This document shows, piece by piece, positions 39,833-47,805 of a stretch of 64,000 bases of DNA; the stretch's first letter is position 1, and every line of letters starts with the position of its first letter. The stretch covers positions 1 through 64,000 of IMG/VR virus record IMGVR_UViG_3300008267_009718; one strand, given 5' to 3'. The stretch is from a virus. Both the position numbers and the translations under genes were made by a program. Under the pieces are notes generated by a model. The model did no database searches. It had not been told where the DNA came from and saw only the letters and a program-made list of their open reading frames with translations.

Positions 39833-41683
39833 TTATTTTGAAGATGTAAGTCCAGCATTTTTTTCCACTAGATTCACGTATGACTTCATTATATTGTTAA
39901 CATTCTCAGCATTTGAGAAATACTCCTTAGCATACGTCATCCATTGATTTTTTTGATCTTGAGTTAACAAATCGGGTACTTTTACATTTACATTAATTGT
40001 GGCATCCCCAACATCCAATTTACCAACAAATTGTTTTGTTTCGGTTGCTTGTAATTTTTGCATTTCATTCAATAAAGCCAAGTCAGAACTTGTAAGGTTT
40101 TCTACCTTTTGGACGTTATTCATACTTTGAACCTTTGCTTGTGGACCCTTAAAAGTTGTTTCTATCCAATCAATTACCGTTTTGTATCCGTCTTTCATTT
40201 CTTGTCCAATATCACCAACATCTATACCATATTCTTTTAAAGTAGAACTAAGACTACTCAATACTGCTTCTGTGTTTGTTCTATATGTTTCACTTTCATC
40301 GGGTAATAATCCACCCATTGCTTGAACACCTTTTAATCCTGTTTTATAAATTTCTTGTGGTATTTCAGTACCGGCTAATCCGTATCTGAAAGCAGACATA
40401 GCTTTATCTAAAATTGCATTTGTTTTTGCTGCCTCACTAAGTTGATCGATTGCAATTTTTTGCATAGATTGTCCTTCCAGTTCTTGTTGTTTTTTCAAAT
40501 CTTTGATTTGTTCCGCAGTAATATCACTCGCATTAATTAATTGTTCTTCTAAAGGTTTTCCTTGCTCATCAAACTTCCTTACTTTTATCTGAGCAATTCC
40601 TTTTTCATTTATTTGTGAAAGAGTTGCCACTAATTCTTTATCTTCTTCATTAATATCAGGAGAAAATTTAATTTGTTTCATTTTAGTATCAAACTCCGCA
40701 GCTTTGATAGACATACTCGCAAATTCTTCGGCGCCCATTTGAAGAGCTCCCGCAACTTCTCGTAATCTTCTTTTTGCCCCTGGCATAATTTCAAACTTCT
40801 GATTTTGTTCATTAAACCTAACAAATTCTTTTGACATATTTACAATTTGATTTTGTAATTCTGTTGGATCATTTTGTGCTAAATCCATAAGTCTAAGTGG
40901 ATCCAATAATTCACCAGTTCTTACACCTAACATTTGTAAACTAGCCGCCAAGTCAATTGCTTTCTCAGGATTGAAAACATCTTCAACAACCGCAAAAACA
41001 CTTTTCATATCGATTCCCAATCTACTTGCTTGAACCGCCATTTTTGCCAAACCTTTTGTTCCGTTTTCAAAATTAAATAAGTTCATTTTACCTAAATTGG
41101 TAGAAACTCCACCCGCAACTGCAGCCACAGTAACACCTGCTTGATTCGCAATTTTGGTTACTTCCATCATTCTTTTTTCAACACTTTCTAAATTGTATCC
41201 CACGTTTCTGAAGTTTTCAGCCAAAACATCCACTTCAATTCCTGTAACTTTGGCTGTCGCAGCCAAAGACGCGAGTTGTTCATCAGAAAGTTTTAGATTT
41301 GTACCAAATTTTTTAATTAATTTTTCATATGTACCACTTGCATCATCAGCCTTTAAACCCATTTCTAAAAATTGTGGTATTGCATCTGCTATAGTAGTTT
41401 GTAATTCGGCACCTCTTTGCCCTCCAACACCCAAAACTTTAACTAAGTCCGCACTTTTTTTATCTAAATCTGAAACAGCCTCAAATATTGCGGATATACC
41501 AAAATTACCAGTAATACTTGTGGTAAAATTAGAAAAAGCAGTTTTTATCTGATTTAAATTAAGAGAGGTTAACCCATTATATAATTTTGCGGTCTCACCT
41601 AATATGTCATATGAAGTATAAGAATAACCAGCGGTAGATTGACTTTCTTTTTCCGGATCACCAGAGTCAGTTGGACTAAACAT
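39833..41683 (-). CDS. Tail tape measure protein
   Basis: 616 residues, similar in length to T4 gp29 (590). Mainly helical, with the Ala/Gly-rich, small-residue helices common in tape measures (VTVAAVAGGVSTNLGKMNLF, AGALQMGAEEFASMSIKAAE). It sets tail length and occupies the tube lumen. It lies between the giant baseplate genes and the gp26-like/tube genes, the usual place for a tape measure after tail assembly chaperones. A TATTTATA element is 10 bases upstream. Tape measure identity is from composition, size and gene order. Confidence 0.8.
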   Translation of the reverse strand: MFSPTDSGDPEKESQSTAGYSYTSYDILGETAKLYNGLTSLNLNQIKTAFSNFTTSITGNFGISAIFEAVSDLDKKSADLVKVLGVGGQRGAELQTTIADAIPQFLEMGLKADDASGTYEKLIKKFGTNLKLSDEQLASLAATAKVTGIEVDVLAENFRNVGYNLESVEKRMMEVTKIANQAGVTVAAVAGGVSTNLGKMNLFNFENGTKGLAKMAVQASRLGIDMKSVFAVVEDVFNPEKAIDLAASLQMLGVRTGELLDPLRLMDLAQNDPTELQNQIVNMSKEFVRFNEQNQKFEIMPGAKRRLREVAGALQMGAEEFASMSIKAAEFDTKMKQIKFSPDINEEDKELVATLSQINEKGIAQIKVRKFDEQGKPLEEQLINASDITAEQIKDLKKQQELEGQSMQKIAIDQLSEAAKTNAILDKAMSAFRYGLAGTEIPQEIYKTGLKGVQAMGGLLPDESETYRTNTEAVLSSLSSTLKEYGIDVGDIGQEMKDGYKTVIDWIETTFKGPQAKVQSMNNVQKVENLTSSDLALLNEMQKLQATETKQFVGKLDVGDATINVNVKVPDLLTQDQKNQWMTYAKEYFSNAENVNNIMKSYVNLVEKNAGLTSSK

Positions 41684-41693
41684 AATTTTTATT

Positions 41694-41702
41694 TATAAAT
41701 AC
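41694..41702 (-). promoter_or_regulatory. TATTTATA-type candidate late promoter
   Basis: GTATTTATA on the coding strand, ending 10 bases before the tape measure ATG at 41683 and just after the stop of the frameshift extension. Confidence 0.5.
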
Positions 41703-41707
41703 GTTTT

Positions 41708-41863
41708 TTAATTGTTTTTTTCGTGTTCCTTAACAATTTTGTCAATTAAATAACGTCTTACATATGTTGGCATTTTAAGAAATTCCGTATAGGTAGTACG
41801 AAGAAATTTTGCTAAAATGTAATACTCATCTAAAAGGTACTTTGAATAATCAGAAGAAAGGCC
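41708..41863 (-). CDS. Frameshift extension of gp26-like protein (tail assembly chaperone-type)
   Basis: A 51-codon open stretch in the +1 frame relative to the gp26-like gene, ending at the TAA at 41708. The reading frame is open from 41896 but has no ATG until well inside it (41773) and no ribosome site. The peptide, GLSSDYSKYLLDEYYILAKF continuing to TEFLKMPTYVRRYLIDKIVKE, is the kind of helical sequence seen in small ORFs next to tail genes. It would join the upstream protein at TTT TTT CGG, where slipping +1 on TTT/TTC before the rare Arg codon CGG gives a 301-residue fusion. Known precedent: tail chaperones of many phages are made by frameshifting, mostly -1. The frameshift itself is inferred. 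Confidence 0.7.
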   Translation of the reverse strand, partial: GLSSDYSKYLLDEYYILAKFLRTTYTEFLKMPTYVRRYLIDKIVKEHEKNN

Positions 41864-42614
41864 GAAAAAATTCAACCCCAAAAGTAATGTCTGCCATTAC
41901 TCTTTCTCCTGACGGGGCTATTACTTCTTTTGTTAAGTCTAATCTTGGTTCGTTTTCAAATAGAAAATTCTTGATATGTTTTGAATCCATTATTGGCATA
42001 GATTCTATGAATTTTGAAATGTACATTCTATCTTCATTTCCATCTATACTAACAATCATTTTATTTAATCTTGTTGTTTGGACGGGTGCTGTCCTTCCTT
42101 TAGGGTAAGAACTAATTACAGTTTCAATTTCCATTAAATCCCGAACATTTAATAATTTAAGTTTAACTTCATTTCCACTTCTAGGTAAAGTAGTTGTCAA
42201 ATATCCATTCTCATCAGGAGATGAATTTGTTTTTTTAATATTTAACTCATCCAACATTATACTTGTTTCAAATGTGGCATTAGTTTTTGGATCCCTAAGA
42301 TTAACTCTATATTCAGGTCCGAAAGAAGTGTTTCTCAAAAAAATCAATAACGCTTCAGTATCACCATCTAATAGTTCTTCAGGTCTTAAATCGTGTTCAT
42401 AAATCTTATTTCTTAATAAAGGTAAAACAACAGTCTCTCTTATCGATCTTTCGGGGTTAATGTTTGATAAAATGTTCTCATCAACCGCAGTCAAATATCC
42501 AACTTTTACACTTTTTTTCTTAGATTTATAAAAAACACCACCTGATGGTAATTTCACAACATCGTGTGGTAAATTAAAATCTGTTTGCCCATATTGTAAT
42601 GCATAATCTTCCAT
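41850..42614 (-). CDS. 26: gp26-like baseplate/tail assembly protein
   Basis: 254 residues. Starts with LPHDVVKLPSGGVFYKSKKK and LTAVDENILSNINPERSIRE, and ends with VMADITFGVEFFRPF, features of the T4 gp26 baseplate family. In T4 gp26 is needed for hub assembly; related proteins in other phages act as tail assembly chaperones. The zero-frame ends at TGA (41850), but a +1 shift near codon 250 would add 51 residues. It lies upstream of the tape measure and after the tube gene's terminator, the chaperone position in most tailed phages. Confident as to family; the role as chaperone is inferred. Confidence 0.82.
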   Translation of the reverse strand: MEDYALQYGQTDFNLPHDVVKLPSGGVFYKSKKKSVKVGYLTAVDENILSNINPERSIRETVVLPLLRNKIYEHDLRPEELLDGDTEALLIFLRNTSFGPEYRVNLRDPKTNATFETSIMLDELNIKKTNSSPDENGYLTTTLPRSGNEVKLKLLNVRDLMEIETVISSYPKGRTAPVQTTRLNKMIVSIDGNEDRMYISKFIESMPIMDSKHIKNFLFENEPRLDLTKEVIAPSGERVMADITFGVEFFRPFF

Positions 42615-42712: not shown

Positions 42713-43201
42713 TTAGTACACAAGAATACAACGATCCATTTGCATAGTAGCTGTAACATCAGCCAATGCATCTTGACTGTATGCTAATGAACCAAAGTTA
42801 ACATCTGTCATAAATGTTCCTTCTAATATCCATTTTTCCACAACAACACCAGTTGGGTCTAACATTTCGATGTCCACATTTTTTTTGTATCCAGCAGCGT
42901 AACCCATACGACCCGTTACTGATTCAGCACATAGACGAACCCATTCCATAAGAGCTTGTGAAGCGGAAGGACCGATTGGGTCTCGGAATTTTACTTGTAT
43001 TGAACTCCAAGTAAACCTACCTGCGACATAAGTTGATGTATTCAAAAAGGGTATTTCTGTTGAATTTATCTTGATGGAAGGTCTTGCCGCACTTTCAACA
43101 AACCATTCATTAATCCCTAAAGAAGATGGAAATCTCAAAATAAATCTGTTCTGTCTTTTCGGTTCGTAAGGAACTGGCATTTTCATTAACAAATCAGCCA
43201 T
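42713..43201 (-). CDS. 19: Tail tube protein, gp19-like
   Basis: 162 residues, almost the same as T4 gp19 (163). Features: KRQNRFILRFPSSLGINEWF at the N-terminus, AARPSIKINSTEIPFLNTST, then FRDPIGPSASQALMEWVRLC, and C-terminal ILEGTFMTDVNFGSLAYSQD. Polymerises into the hexameric rings of the inner tail tube. It has its own terminator downstream and a TATTTATAATA element in a 67-base leader region, as expected for an abundant structural protein. Confidence 0.92.
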   Translation of the reverse strand: MADLLMKMPVPYEPKRQNRFILRFPSSLGINEWFVESAARPSIKINSTEIPFLNTSTYVAGRFTWSSIQVKFRDPIGPSASQALMEWVRLCAESVTGRMGYAAGYKKNVDIEMLDPTGVVVEKWILEGTFMTDVNFGSLAYSQDALADVTATMQMDRCILVY

Positions 43202-44235: not shown

Positions 44236-47200
44236 TTAGATATTCTCAAACGACGCTCCTGTTGGAGTAATGTAGAATGTTATATCAATAAACTCGAGTG
44301 AACGAGTAGGTTTGATATAAATCTTACCAGTCATTTGATTTCTGTCTAAGTCAGCAGTATCACTAGAAACTGTAACTCGGAAATCATATAAACCTCTATC
44401 TCTTCTGATTGAATCCAAGATTGGGTTAACCGCATTTAAGAAATCTTGTCTTACTTGTTCGTCATTCTGATCGAATAGTAATCTTACAGAAACCGCTGAA
44501 ATCAATTTACGAGCTTGTAGTAACAATCTTCTTACGTTAATTCTGTCAAGTGCAGATTCTCTAACTTGAAGAGTTTTGTTACCCCAAATTACTGTACCAA
44601 CATCTGAGAAGGTTGCAATTGGGTTAATTCTACCTACATATAGAGTATCTCTATCCTCTTGAGTTAACTTTTTACGTGCTTTAACTGAGTTAACAATACC
44701 ACGAGTATAACCTGCTGCTGCGAACCAAGGGAATGCGATATTATCTGTCAATGCCAAGTTTCTTGTTACTTCCGCAGTTGCCGGAATGTAAATTTGAGTG
44801 TTGTTAACGGTATCACGAGTTAATACCCAAGGATAGTAAGTCGCAGTATAGTTAGAATCAATACCTGCTTCCTCTAAATTATCAACAGCTTCTTGAGGGT
44901 AAATCAATCCATCTTGTCCTGTTGTTGTTGGTAATAATAGATTATAGTCAGGTGTTGTTGTGATATACAACGAATCTGCTCTATCAAATTCTATCATTTC
45001 TACAGTATCACCAACTAAGTCAGAGTTATTTACATAGTCAATACCAGGTGTAACAAACACATTGATATTAACCGCCTCAGGGTTTGAAAATGTCCTAATC
45101 CCTAATAGATATGCATAATAGTCTGTATTCGCATAATTTCTTGTTCCATCACCAATAGATATTTGTTTAAATGCCCCCCAACCAACTGCTTGTGGGTATC
45201 TATCAGATGGACAAGCCCCATTAAGGAATCCTTGTCTTCCTAAGACATATCTGTCACCATTAGTTCTTCTTTCTCTGTAGATATCCCAACCATCAAACCC
45301 GCCTTGTACAAACAAAGTGAATTTACGAGAGAACAATCTGTAATATGGGCTTGTTTCATTTAAAGGTTCTGAAGCAAACGGTGCATCACCAACATAGAAT
45401 CTTGGGGTTCCGCTTGTTGAGAATGCGTTACCGATTGTTAAGACACTCGCATTTATATCCATATGAAAACCTCTTGTTCTATAAGACCATTCCGATCCTT
45501 CTAAATCACAAGATGAAATAGGATTACGTTTACCAACATATTCATAAAAATCAGGATCATAACCCCAGAAATTTGACAAACCAAGGTATGTCCTTCTAAC
45601 GTTATCACCACCTGTAGTTGTTAAATTGTCATTACCTGAAGGTAAACCAAATGGAGGATTGTAAATAACCTCACCTGGAAAATCGTATTTAGTTTTAAAG
45701 ATTGGGAATGGAGAGGTTGCTCCCGCATATTCTCTAAAGTTGAATCCTTCAAATCCACAAGGTAGTGAATCAACAGGTGCATCTTCGTTCATTTCAACCA
45801 TTACATATTTAGAGTTCAGCTCGAACTCACCGTCTAACGTACCTATTTTCTTAGCCACAAAGTTATTTTGACTTGGATCCATAGAACAGTTAGTAAATTT
45901 CTCCAATACTGTAGGATTTGAATCGGTATCATAATAATCTCTTACTAACACTGTAAATGTTTGATTCGCAAATGATATATCCGCAATTGACATTTTTACA
46001 TTAGTGTTAGCATTGTTACCATCAGCAATTGTGTAGAATTTAAATAAGTTATACACTTTTGTACCTCTTAATTCTGACACAACCCAAGGAGAACTTGGTG
46101 ACTGATATCTGTCAAGATACCAACCAATCGATGTTGAACTTTCACTTTGTGCCGAATCCAATGAAACTAATTCAGGATTTAAACCTCTAATATAACCTTT
46201 TCTATAACCATAATTTAAAAGAGATTGGAATCTTTCTTCCATCATTAAAGGTACATTAAATCTATTTTTACCGAAGTTGCTAGAACCAAAAACTTTACTG
46301 ATGTATTTTGCGTCAGATATTGACATTGATGTCTCAAATGAGAATGTTTCTCCTTTGTAGTTTGTTGCATTAACTAAAAATGGTAAATAAGGATTTTTGG
46401 TTACACCAGAATAAGCACCTGTCATATCCAAAGAAACGTCTGTTAAACCTGTCACCTCCCAAGTTGGGTTTTCACCATCAGTATAATTTGAAATACCTCT
46501 CGATCTTAATGTGGAAACAACTAAATTATCAAAATCACTGTAAGAATTACCTGTAAATTTGTAAAGTTTACCAACTACTGTACCTGAATAACAAGTTGTA
46601 ATTTCACCTAAATCTTGATTACCACCACTAGTTGCGGGACAAGGTATACAAGGATCATAAGGATAGATATTTACAGTCCAAGTCGTTGTTACTGAACCAT
46701 CCTGTGATGTTAACACATAAGTTAAGGTTTCCGCAGAAAAGTTAACACTTGTTGAATTACTAACTTGCGTAACTCCATTAACCGTTACCGCAGTTGTACA
46801 AGCACTAAAAGTAGGAGTAAGAGCTGAATACACGTTTGTAAACCCAGAAGGTAAACATATATCAATAACATTAGTGTTGTAATTTATAACACCTGAATTA
46901 CCACTTATTGAAAAGTTGTAGAATGATGCACAAGTTGATGAGGTTGTTGTAAGCGTTACTCCTGTATAATACGAATAAAATGAATAACCTGTGTAATTAC
47001 CATTTCCAGTATTATCAAATGTTGCATAATACCAAGTATCATTAAACGGAGAAGTTAAGTCAGTTTCATTTAAATTAACAGAAGGGACTTCAAAAACGTT
47101 ATTTTCAGTAAATGAGGAAAAAGTTGGATTTGTAAACCCTGTATAATCATCAACATCAATAGAACCAAAATAATCAATCGTTTTTCCTGTTGTAGGATTG

Positions 47201-47805
47201 TCCAATGACAATATTCCAAAAATAGAATTAGTTATATTAGAACTAATTGAGGACACCCCACCATCAAATTGTTGATATTGTTCGTTAAACATATCTTGTA
47301 TTTCTGATGGAAATGAATTTAAAAATACAATACTATCTGCAGAATTATTACATCCACTAAAATTAACTAAGATATCTTCAGTATTTGCGGATGTACAAAC
47401 TTTTTCACAATCTACCGTGACACCACTTGCACAATCAAACCCAATAGTTGTTGGATCTACGTTTGCTACAGTTAGAATTGACCAAGAAGGTCCAGCGTCG
47501 TATCCTGATAAACCTAATATCCTGGTTACAAATAACTGATTTGATTGTTGTAAATAAGCCTTTGCGATATACGCCGCTTCATATTTAGGGATTTGAGTAT
47601 TCACAAATTTTTCTGGTGAAGTACCCCCGAAGTAAGTTGTAAACTCGTCGAAGTTTCTTATGAAAATTGGTTCGAAAGCAGGTCCTTTCAAAGTTTCACC
47701 CGCAATACCCAAAGTTGTTACACCAACACTTTGAGCAACGAAACTCAAATCAACTTCTGAAGTATATACACCTGGTGATACAAATACTTTACTGTTAGTT
47801 GCCAT
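44236..47805 (-). CDS. 18: Tail sheath protein, gp18-like, with Ig-like insertion
   Basis: 1189 residues, about 1.8 times T4 gp18 (659). The N-terminus (KVFVSPGVYTSEVDLSFVAQ), mid domain and C-terminus (QARKLISAVSVRLLFDQNDE, then MTGKIYIKPTRSLEFIDITF) are classical sheath. Between about 288 and 381 lies a sequence patterned like DUF5018-type Ig domains of Bacteroidota secreted proteins: FNFSISGNSGVINYN, then ALTPTFSACTTAVTV and YVLTSQDGSVTTTWTVNIYP. It is followed by a Cys cluster (CIPC). The sheath contracts to drive the tube into the host. The inserted domain would project from the sheath surface and may bind or decorate; that is inferred. Confidence 0.92.
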   Translation of the reverse strand: MATNSKVFVSPGVYTSEVDLSFVAQSVGVTTLGIAGETLKGPAFEPIFIRNFDEFTTYFGGTSPEKFVNTQIPKYEAAYIAKAYLQQSNQLFVTRILGLSGYDAGPSWSILTVANVDPTTIGFDCASGVTVDCEKVCTSANTEDILVNFSGCNNSADSIVFLNSFPSEIQDMFNEQYQQFDGGVSSISSNITNSIFGILSLDNPTTGKTIDYFGSIDVDDYTGFTNPTFSSFTENNVFEVPSVNLNETDLTSPFNDTWYYATFDNTGNGNYTGYSFYSYYTGVTLTTTSSTCASFYNFSISGNSGVINYNTNVIDICLPSGFTNVYSALTPTFSACTTAVTVNGVTQVSNSTSVNFSAETLTYVLTSQDGSVTTTWTVNIYPYDPCIPCPATSGGNQDLGEITTCYSGTVVGKLYKFTGNSYSDFDNLVVSTLRSRGISNYTDGENPTWEVTGLTDVSLDMTGAYSGVTKNPYLPFLVNATNYKGETFSFETSMSISDAKYISKVFGSSNFGKNRFNVPLMMEERFQSLLNYGYRKGYIRGLNPELVSLDSAQSESSTSIGWYLDRYQSPSSPWVVSELRGTKVYNLFKFYTIADGNNANTNVKMSIADISFANQTFTVLVRDYYDTDSNPTVLEKFTNCSMDPSQNNFVAKKIGTLDGEFELNSKYVMVEMNEDAPVDSLPCGFEGFNFREYAGATSPFPIFKTKYDFPGEVIYNPPFGLPSGNDNLTTTGGDNVRRTYLGLSNFWGYDPDFYEYVGKRNPISSCDLEGSEWSYRTRGFHMDINASVLTIGNAFSTSGTPRFYVGDAPFASEPLNETSPYYRLFSRKFTLFVQGGFDGWDIYRERRTNGDRYVLGRQGFLNGACPSDRYPQAVGWGAFKQISIGDGTRNYANTDYYAYLLGIRTFSNPEAVNINVFVTPGIDYVNNSDLVGDTVEMIEFDRADSLYITTTPDYNLLLPTTTGQDGLIYPQEAVDNLEEAGIDSNYTATYYPWVLTRDTVNNTQIYIPATAEVTRNLALTDNIAFPWFAAAGYTRGIVNSVKARKKLTQEDRDTLYVGRINPIATFSDVGTVIWGNKTLQVRESALDRINVRRLLLQARKLISAVSVRLLFDQNDEQVRQDFLNAVNPILDSIRRDRGLYDFRVTVSSDTADLDRNQMTGKIYIKPTRSLEFIDITFYITPTGASFENI

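Follow-up and report, generated by a model that had tools for sequence, protein, structure and literature searches.

Can a phage that carries one gene of the T4 gp26/gp51 family make both a short and a long form of its tail assembly chaperone? The question is raised by a minus-strand locus in IMG/VR virus record IMGVR_UViG_3300008267_009718, of which positions 1 to 64,000 (64,000 nucleotides, referred to here as the window) were analysed. The original prediction had proposed that a programmed +1 frameshift extends a gp26-like protein at this locus. From sequence comparison we consider it highly probable that two open reading frames, ORF A and ORF B, specify a short and a long version of a single tail assembly chaperone, by way of a +1 slip of tRNA-Phe from UUU to UUC at a slowly decoded A-site codon. 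This reading is built on what was established here, namely both frames, their conservation, a conserved site, the lack of alternative starts in some relatives and natural in-frame fusions. The elements of the locus are as follows.

41850..42614, minus strand: ORF A, the putative short chaperone (TAC-N), T4 gp26/gp51-like, 254 amino acids (PF12322, phrog_150, AlphaFold model).
41708..41896, minus strand: the +1-frame open stretch holding ORF B, the predicted C-terminal domain of the long form (kept in all clade relatives).
41708..41863, minus strand: the part of ORF B that would be translated beyond the slip, 51 codons (GLSSDYSK...KEHEKNN) plus TAA (+1 codon-position pattern; three-helix model).
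41864..41870, minus strand: the proposed slip site TTT TTT C, where P-site UUU would re-pair as UUC (comparison of 115 junctions).
41862..41864, minus strand: the presumed slow A-site codon CGG, which is CGC in 12/26 clade members (window codon use; site counts).
41876..41882, minus strand: TTTGGGG, invariant, upstream of the slip site, a possible clade-specific cis stimulator (GGG use).

Translation of both frames reproduced the predicted layout, in which the zero-frame protein ends VEFFRPFF at 41850 and a +1 frame open from 41896 to 41708 contributes 51 codons. ORF A has the C-terminus ...FGVEFFRPFF, followed by TGA at 41852-41850, and the ORF B frame stops with TAA at 41710-41708. The junction reads GAA (41873-41871), TTT (41870-41868), TTT (41867-41865) and CGG (41864-41862); after a slip the first +1 codon would be GGC at 41863, and the 51 added codons would give a fusion of 301 amino acids. 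The gp26-like identity of ORF A was borne out by its match to PF12322 (T4 gp26/gp51; E-value 1.2e-8, 35.3 bits, exceeding the curated cut-off of 24.5) and to phrog_150 ('baseplate hub'; E-value 2.4e-10). ORF A and ORF B were modelled separately. The AlphaFold model of ORF A (pLDDT, predicted local distance difference test, 88) matches predicted T4-like gp26/gp51 structures in BFVD, and ORF B is modelled as a three-helix domain (pLDDT 86). None of the structure matches of ORF B among viruses is significant; among them are proteins annotated as tail assembly chaperones and a baseplate protein of a Klebsiella phage, and a search of PDB structures gave no match. The +1 overlap in the window is by itself unremarkable, because the +1 frame stays open for at least 133 nucleotides beyond the stop in 7 of the 39 window ORFs of at least 100 amino acids, and the weight rests on the comparative data. 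Two contigs from other samples carry a junction identical to that of the window, and an assembly error is therefore excluded.

Homologues of ORF A were found on 80 viral contigs with 59-100% protein identity, most of them at only 59-65%. The +1 frame of ORF B is open over its full remaining length in all 80, or to the contig end (L044). The junction string TTTGGGG..GANTTTTTTCGSCCTTTCTT is nearly invariant among these closest relatives, and the same holds for its fuller form, TTTGGGG-N2-GA-N-TTTTTTCG(G/C)CCTTTCTT. The ORF B protein follows the conserved pattern (G/A)LSS...EEyy...MPTYvRkyLi.kiie. Differences in ORF B are distributed over the three +1-frame codon positions as 3080/2355/4874, most of them at third positions, which is the pattern of a coding frame in the relatives. 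When 26 non-redundant genes of the window's clade were compared, the final ten codons of ORF A gave the highest synonymous constraint of any stretch (0.875; mean 0.618, standard deviation 0.073). Constraint 3' of the slip can reflect dual coding. The invariant TTT GGG lies 5' of the slip and cannot be explained in this way, since it precedes the shift: GGG is used at this site in 26/26 genes, compared with 26/342 Gly codons over the rest of these genes. TTTGGGG is thus a candidate cis stimulator, possibly specific to the window's clade.

A distant set was built by profile searches plus cultured phages, its members being chosen for having a +1 extension. Among its 115 non-redundant junctions, TTT TTT TGG occurs 63 times, TTT TTT CGG 23 times, TTT TTT CGC 17 times, TTT TTT TAC three times and TTT CTT TGG twice, and the rest are single cases; nearly all share UUU followed by a pyrimidine. 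The cultured phages SP-15, LIS04, GXN1, Mel-JY01, immuto and RM378 belong to this set. When the related phages were aligned for the overlap and TTT TTT CGG, the overlap was kept and TTT TTT was nearly constant, with the third codon almost always UGG, CGG or CGC. The prediction had called the site a hungry CGG codon. CGG is indeed rare (6 of 19,388 window codons) and, with CGC (2), is the rarest Arg codon of the window. The A-site codon is CGG in 14 and CGC in 12 of the 26 clade members, all 26 of which have a UUU_CGN site with the +1 frame open, and it is mostly UGG elsewhere. The rare-codon idea would therefore fit the clade, though not CGG as such. The base in the A site is also constrained by the +1 residue (Gly or Ala).

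Ribosomes could also enter the +1 frame by shifting -2 on the T run, as happens in phage Mu, and the product would then contain one extra Phe. The six Ts permit re-pairing of tRNA-Phe at -2 in most members, and -2 shifting has been reported for a Mu tail gene (PMC3498833). The relatives with TTC TTT CGT, TTC TTT CAT, TTT CTA or TTT CTT TGG (L086, L172, L085, L167, L242) pair poorly at -2 and well at +1: they keep the +1 arrangement at sites without a T run, and UUU to UUC pairing is perfect. We consider the -2 shift improbable. RNA polymerase slippage on the T6 run, which would leave some mRNA one base shorter, is slightly less probable again: most members do have a run of T6-T7, but the same relatives keep the +1 architecture without a run of at least four Ts, and T6 is short for transcriptional slippage. 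Least probable of all is a separate small ORF B gene begun within ORF A by translational coupling, with the TTG at 41881 as one candidate start. In its favour, the members of the window's clade, and they alone, conserve this TTG, as a by-product of TTTGGGG, and pieces of ORF B are annotated as separate hypothetical genes in public records. Against it, no ATG, GTG or TTG lies in the overlap of 33/115 relatives, such initiation is excluded in 12/102 that have none of these codons from the upstream +1 stop as far as the conserved motif, and natural in-frame fusions of the N domain with ORF B exist. The earlier statement that ORF B has no usable ATG stands in part: besides the TTG, the +1 ORF has an ATG in frame, which encodes the M of MPTY, and this is no conserved start because even close relatives often have I, V or L in its place. 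Separated ORFs with their own starts were not seen among the relatives examined, apart from two in-frame second copies and a few -1 shifts.

The predicted +1 slip from TTT to TTC, with its 301-residue product, thus gained support from the comparison with relatives, as did the predicted tail chaperone function. Upstream +1 stops adjoin the slip site in L103, L114 and L130, which sets the 5' limit of the shift at the TTT TTT region. A slip driven by a stop codon was rejected because of L018, which has the site TTT TTT CGG and no nearby stop, and the -1 frame shuts within about 20 nucleotides in most close relatives.

The in-frame second copies are found in two tandem duplications (L090:1501-3083 and L109:1501-3086). 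Copy 1 lacks the extension, and copy 2 consists of the N domain and ORF B in one frame, with hidden Markov model (HMM) E-values for L090 and L109 of 2e-31 and 4e-36 (N domain) and 7e-21 and 4e-20 (ORF B). In the tree copy 1 falls inside the UUU UUU UGG group, with copy 2 on a long branch nearby. The in-frame copy supports the fusion as a real functional unit. The duplication reproduces the T4 gp26/gp51 arrangement inside a putatively frameshifting clade. T4 encodes the short and long chaperones as gp26 (TAC-N) and gp51 (TAC-NC), a finding credited to Vladimirov, Gautam and Davidson (2022, Virology 566:9-15) in PMC10885494 and PMC12846349. Both belong to the same protein family as ORF A (PF12322), and gp51 runs on past gp26 at its C-terminus, with an MxPxxR-like stretch in the added part. 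T4 uses two genes, whereas the window phage would use one gene and a shift.

We propose that the majority of ribosomes would terminate at the ORF A stop and yield TAC-N of 254 amino acids. In a minority, slow decoding of the CGG in UUU UUU CGG would hold up the ribosome while peptidyl-tRNA-Phe sits on the preceding UUU; this tRNA would re-pair one base on, at UUC, and translation would continue in the +1 frame, adding a 51-residue three-helix domain to give TAC-NC of 301 amino acids. If the two forms act as in lambda G/GT, the tape measure would be bound by many copies of the short form and few of the long, and these copies would bring in the tail tube subunits. From the sequences we infer the slip itself, its efficiency, the short-to-long ratio and the chaperone activity. 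Several observations weigh against this proposal. A stimulatory RNA structure is not supported (consensus fold -4.4 kcal/mol, no covariation), and the search for structure downstream turned up no more than a weak hairpin spanning the site, in invariant sequence. UGG, the commonest A-site codon of the relatives, is not rare in the window (221/19,388). The tRNA supply at CGG and CGC is read from phage codon use only; host assignment by a search of genome contigs returned only three distant bins, and the window contains no tRNA genes. The LIS04 junction, the one exception to UUU before a pyrimidine, is TTT TTT AGT, where a slip would need UUU to UUA. Finally, the profile of ORF B resembles that of the T4 gp51 C-terminus only weakly (hhalign probability 18%, E-value 0.0014, over the xMPxxxR stretch), and a plain HMM search with ORF B found nothing significant in T4.

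The tally of exceptions took in the sampled loci as far as L172, short of the more distant L173-L238, plus the cultured matches found later. The extension lies in the -1 frame in L087 (LR756511), Agrobacterium phage Atu_ph07 (L244) and L241, with T TTT TTC in L087 and L244; the predicted direction of the shift varies within the family. PF12322 occurs only once in each of four large relatives (208-322 kb), whose records may be incomplete, and therefore no second gene of the family was found to supply their long form. For Flavobacterium phage immuto (L242:2495-3458), L083 and L084, public records split the junction into two genes or leave ORF B partly unannotated. In L107 (1381-2420) neither the gp26-like gene nor its ORF B stays open unless TGA is read as Trp; three TGA codons stand at Trp-compatible positions, the TTT TTT TGG site is retained, and the locus would fit a +1 shift if TGA is Trp. 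L107 is possibly a phage with recoded UGA. The record of Citrobacter phage Moon labels gp27-gp28 (L252:850-941) as a 'GT-like fusion', a label that may be misplaced given gp26/gp51.

The genes on either side of the locus bear on the predicted order of tube, chaperone and tape measure.

42713..43201, minus strand: tail tube protein, neighbour upstream of ORF A (phrog_4542, E-value 1.5e-25).
39833..41683, minus strand: downstream gene of 616 amino acids in the tape measure position (position alone).

The tube was confirmed by its family match, and the tape measure is assigned by position only: no relative of the 616-residue protein could be detected in known phages, and LIS04 and immuto have a tape measure annotated in the matching slot. 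Just 5' of the 616-residue gene, at 41684-41710, lies TATAAATA, which is the consensus of T4 late promoters. The tail sheath protein at 44236-47805 is unusually long (1189 amino acids), with its family match confined to the last quarter.

Frameshifted tail chaperones are already known. In lambda G/GT-type systems a short protein and a frameshifted longer form are encoded in the region from tail tube to tape measure (PMC5009743), and 6-7% shifting was measured in two HK97-like chaperone genes (PMC3711429). As in lambda G/GT, the window phage has a conserved second ORF, in a different frame, that overlaps the 3' end of ORF A; a -1 shift is used by lambda and most others, whereas the window phage would shift by +1 on UUU_Y with an N domain of the T4 PF12322 family. 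The chaperone genes of Vandenendeviridae and Andersonviridae (PMC12846349) also have a poly-T site at the gene 3' end, with the shift in the -1 direction. The closest likeness in the predicted slip, P-site UUU to UUC before a CGN codon, is to the UUU_CGN sites of influenza A PA-X, where the UUU_C slip was shown by peptide analysis, and of amalgaviruses (PMC3498833); the window is from a bacterial virus, and most of its relatives have UGG, not CGN. Bacterial prfB shares the +1 direction, and CUU U could serve as the P-site tetranucleotide in L242 and L167. A prfB-like Shine-Dalgarno was rejected for wrong spacing: the G-rich stretch of the window lies at another distance from the P site. The A-site codon of the window is CGG, and L018 has no stop near the site. 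We found no description of this +1 shift on UUU_Y for the T4-type family in the literature covered, which did not extend to Vladimirov et al. (2022). A broader reading, which we would sooner doubt than accept, is that an entire T4-type branch with contractile tails, spread over unrelated hosts, makes its long chaperone by a +1 slip of tRNA-Phe on UUU_Y at a slow codon, that the clade-specific TTTGGGG is a new kind of stimulator and that T4 gp26/gp51 is one of several independent escapes by duplication from a frameshift of this sort.

The arrangement in the window would be an intermediate between frameshifted chaperones and the two-gene solution of T4, and it would extend the UUU_CGN-type +1 site from influenza A PA-X and amalgaviruses to phages. 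It would also mean that the long chaperone is unannotated or split in public genomes, including those of cultured Flavobacterium, Bacillus, Listeria and Microcystis phages, and these cultured members make the arrangement open to direct testing.
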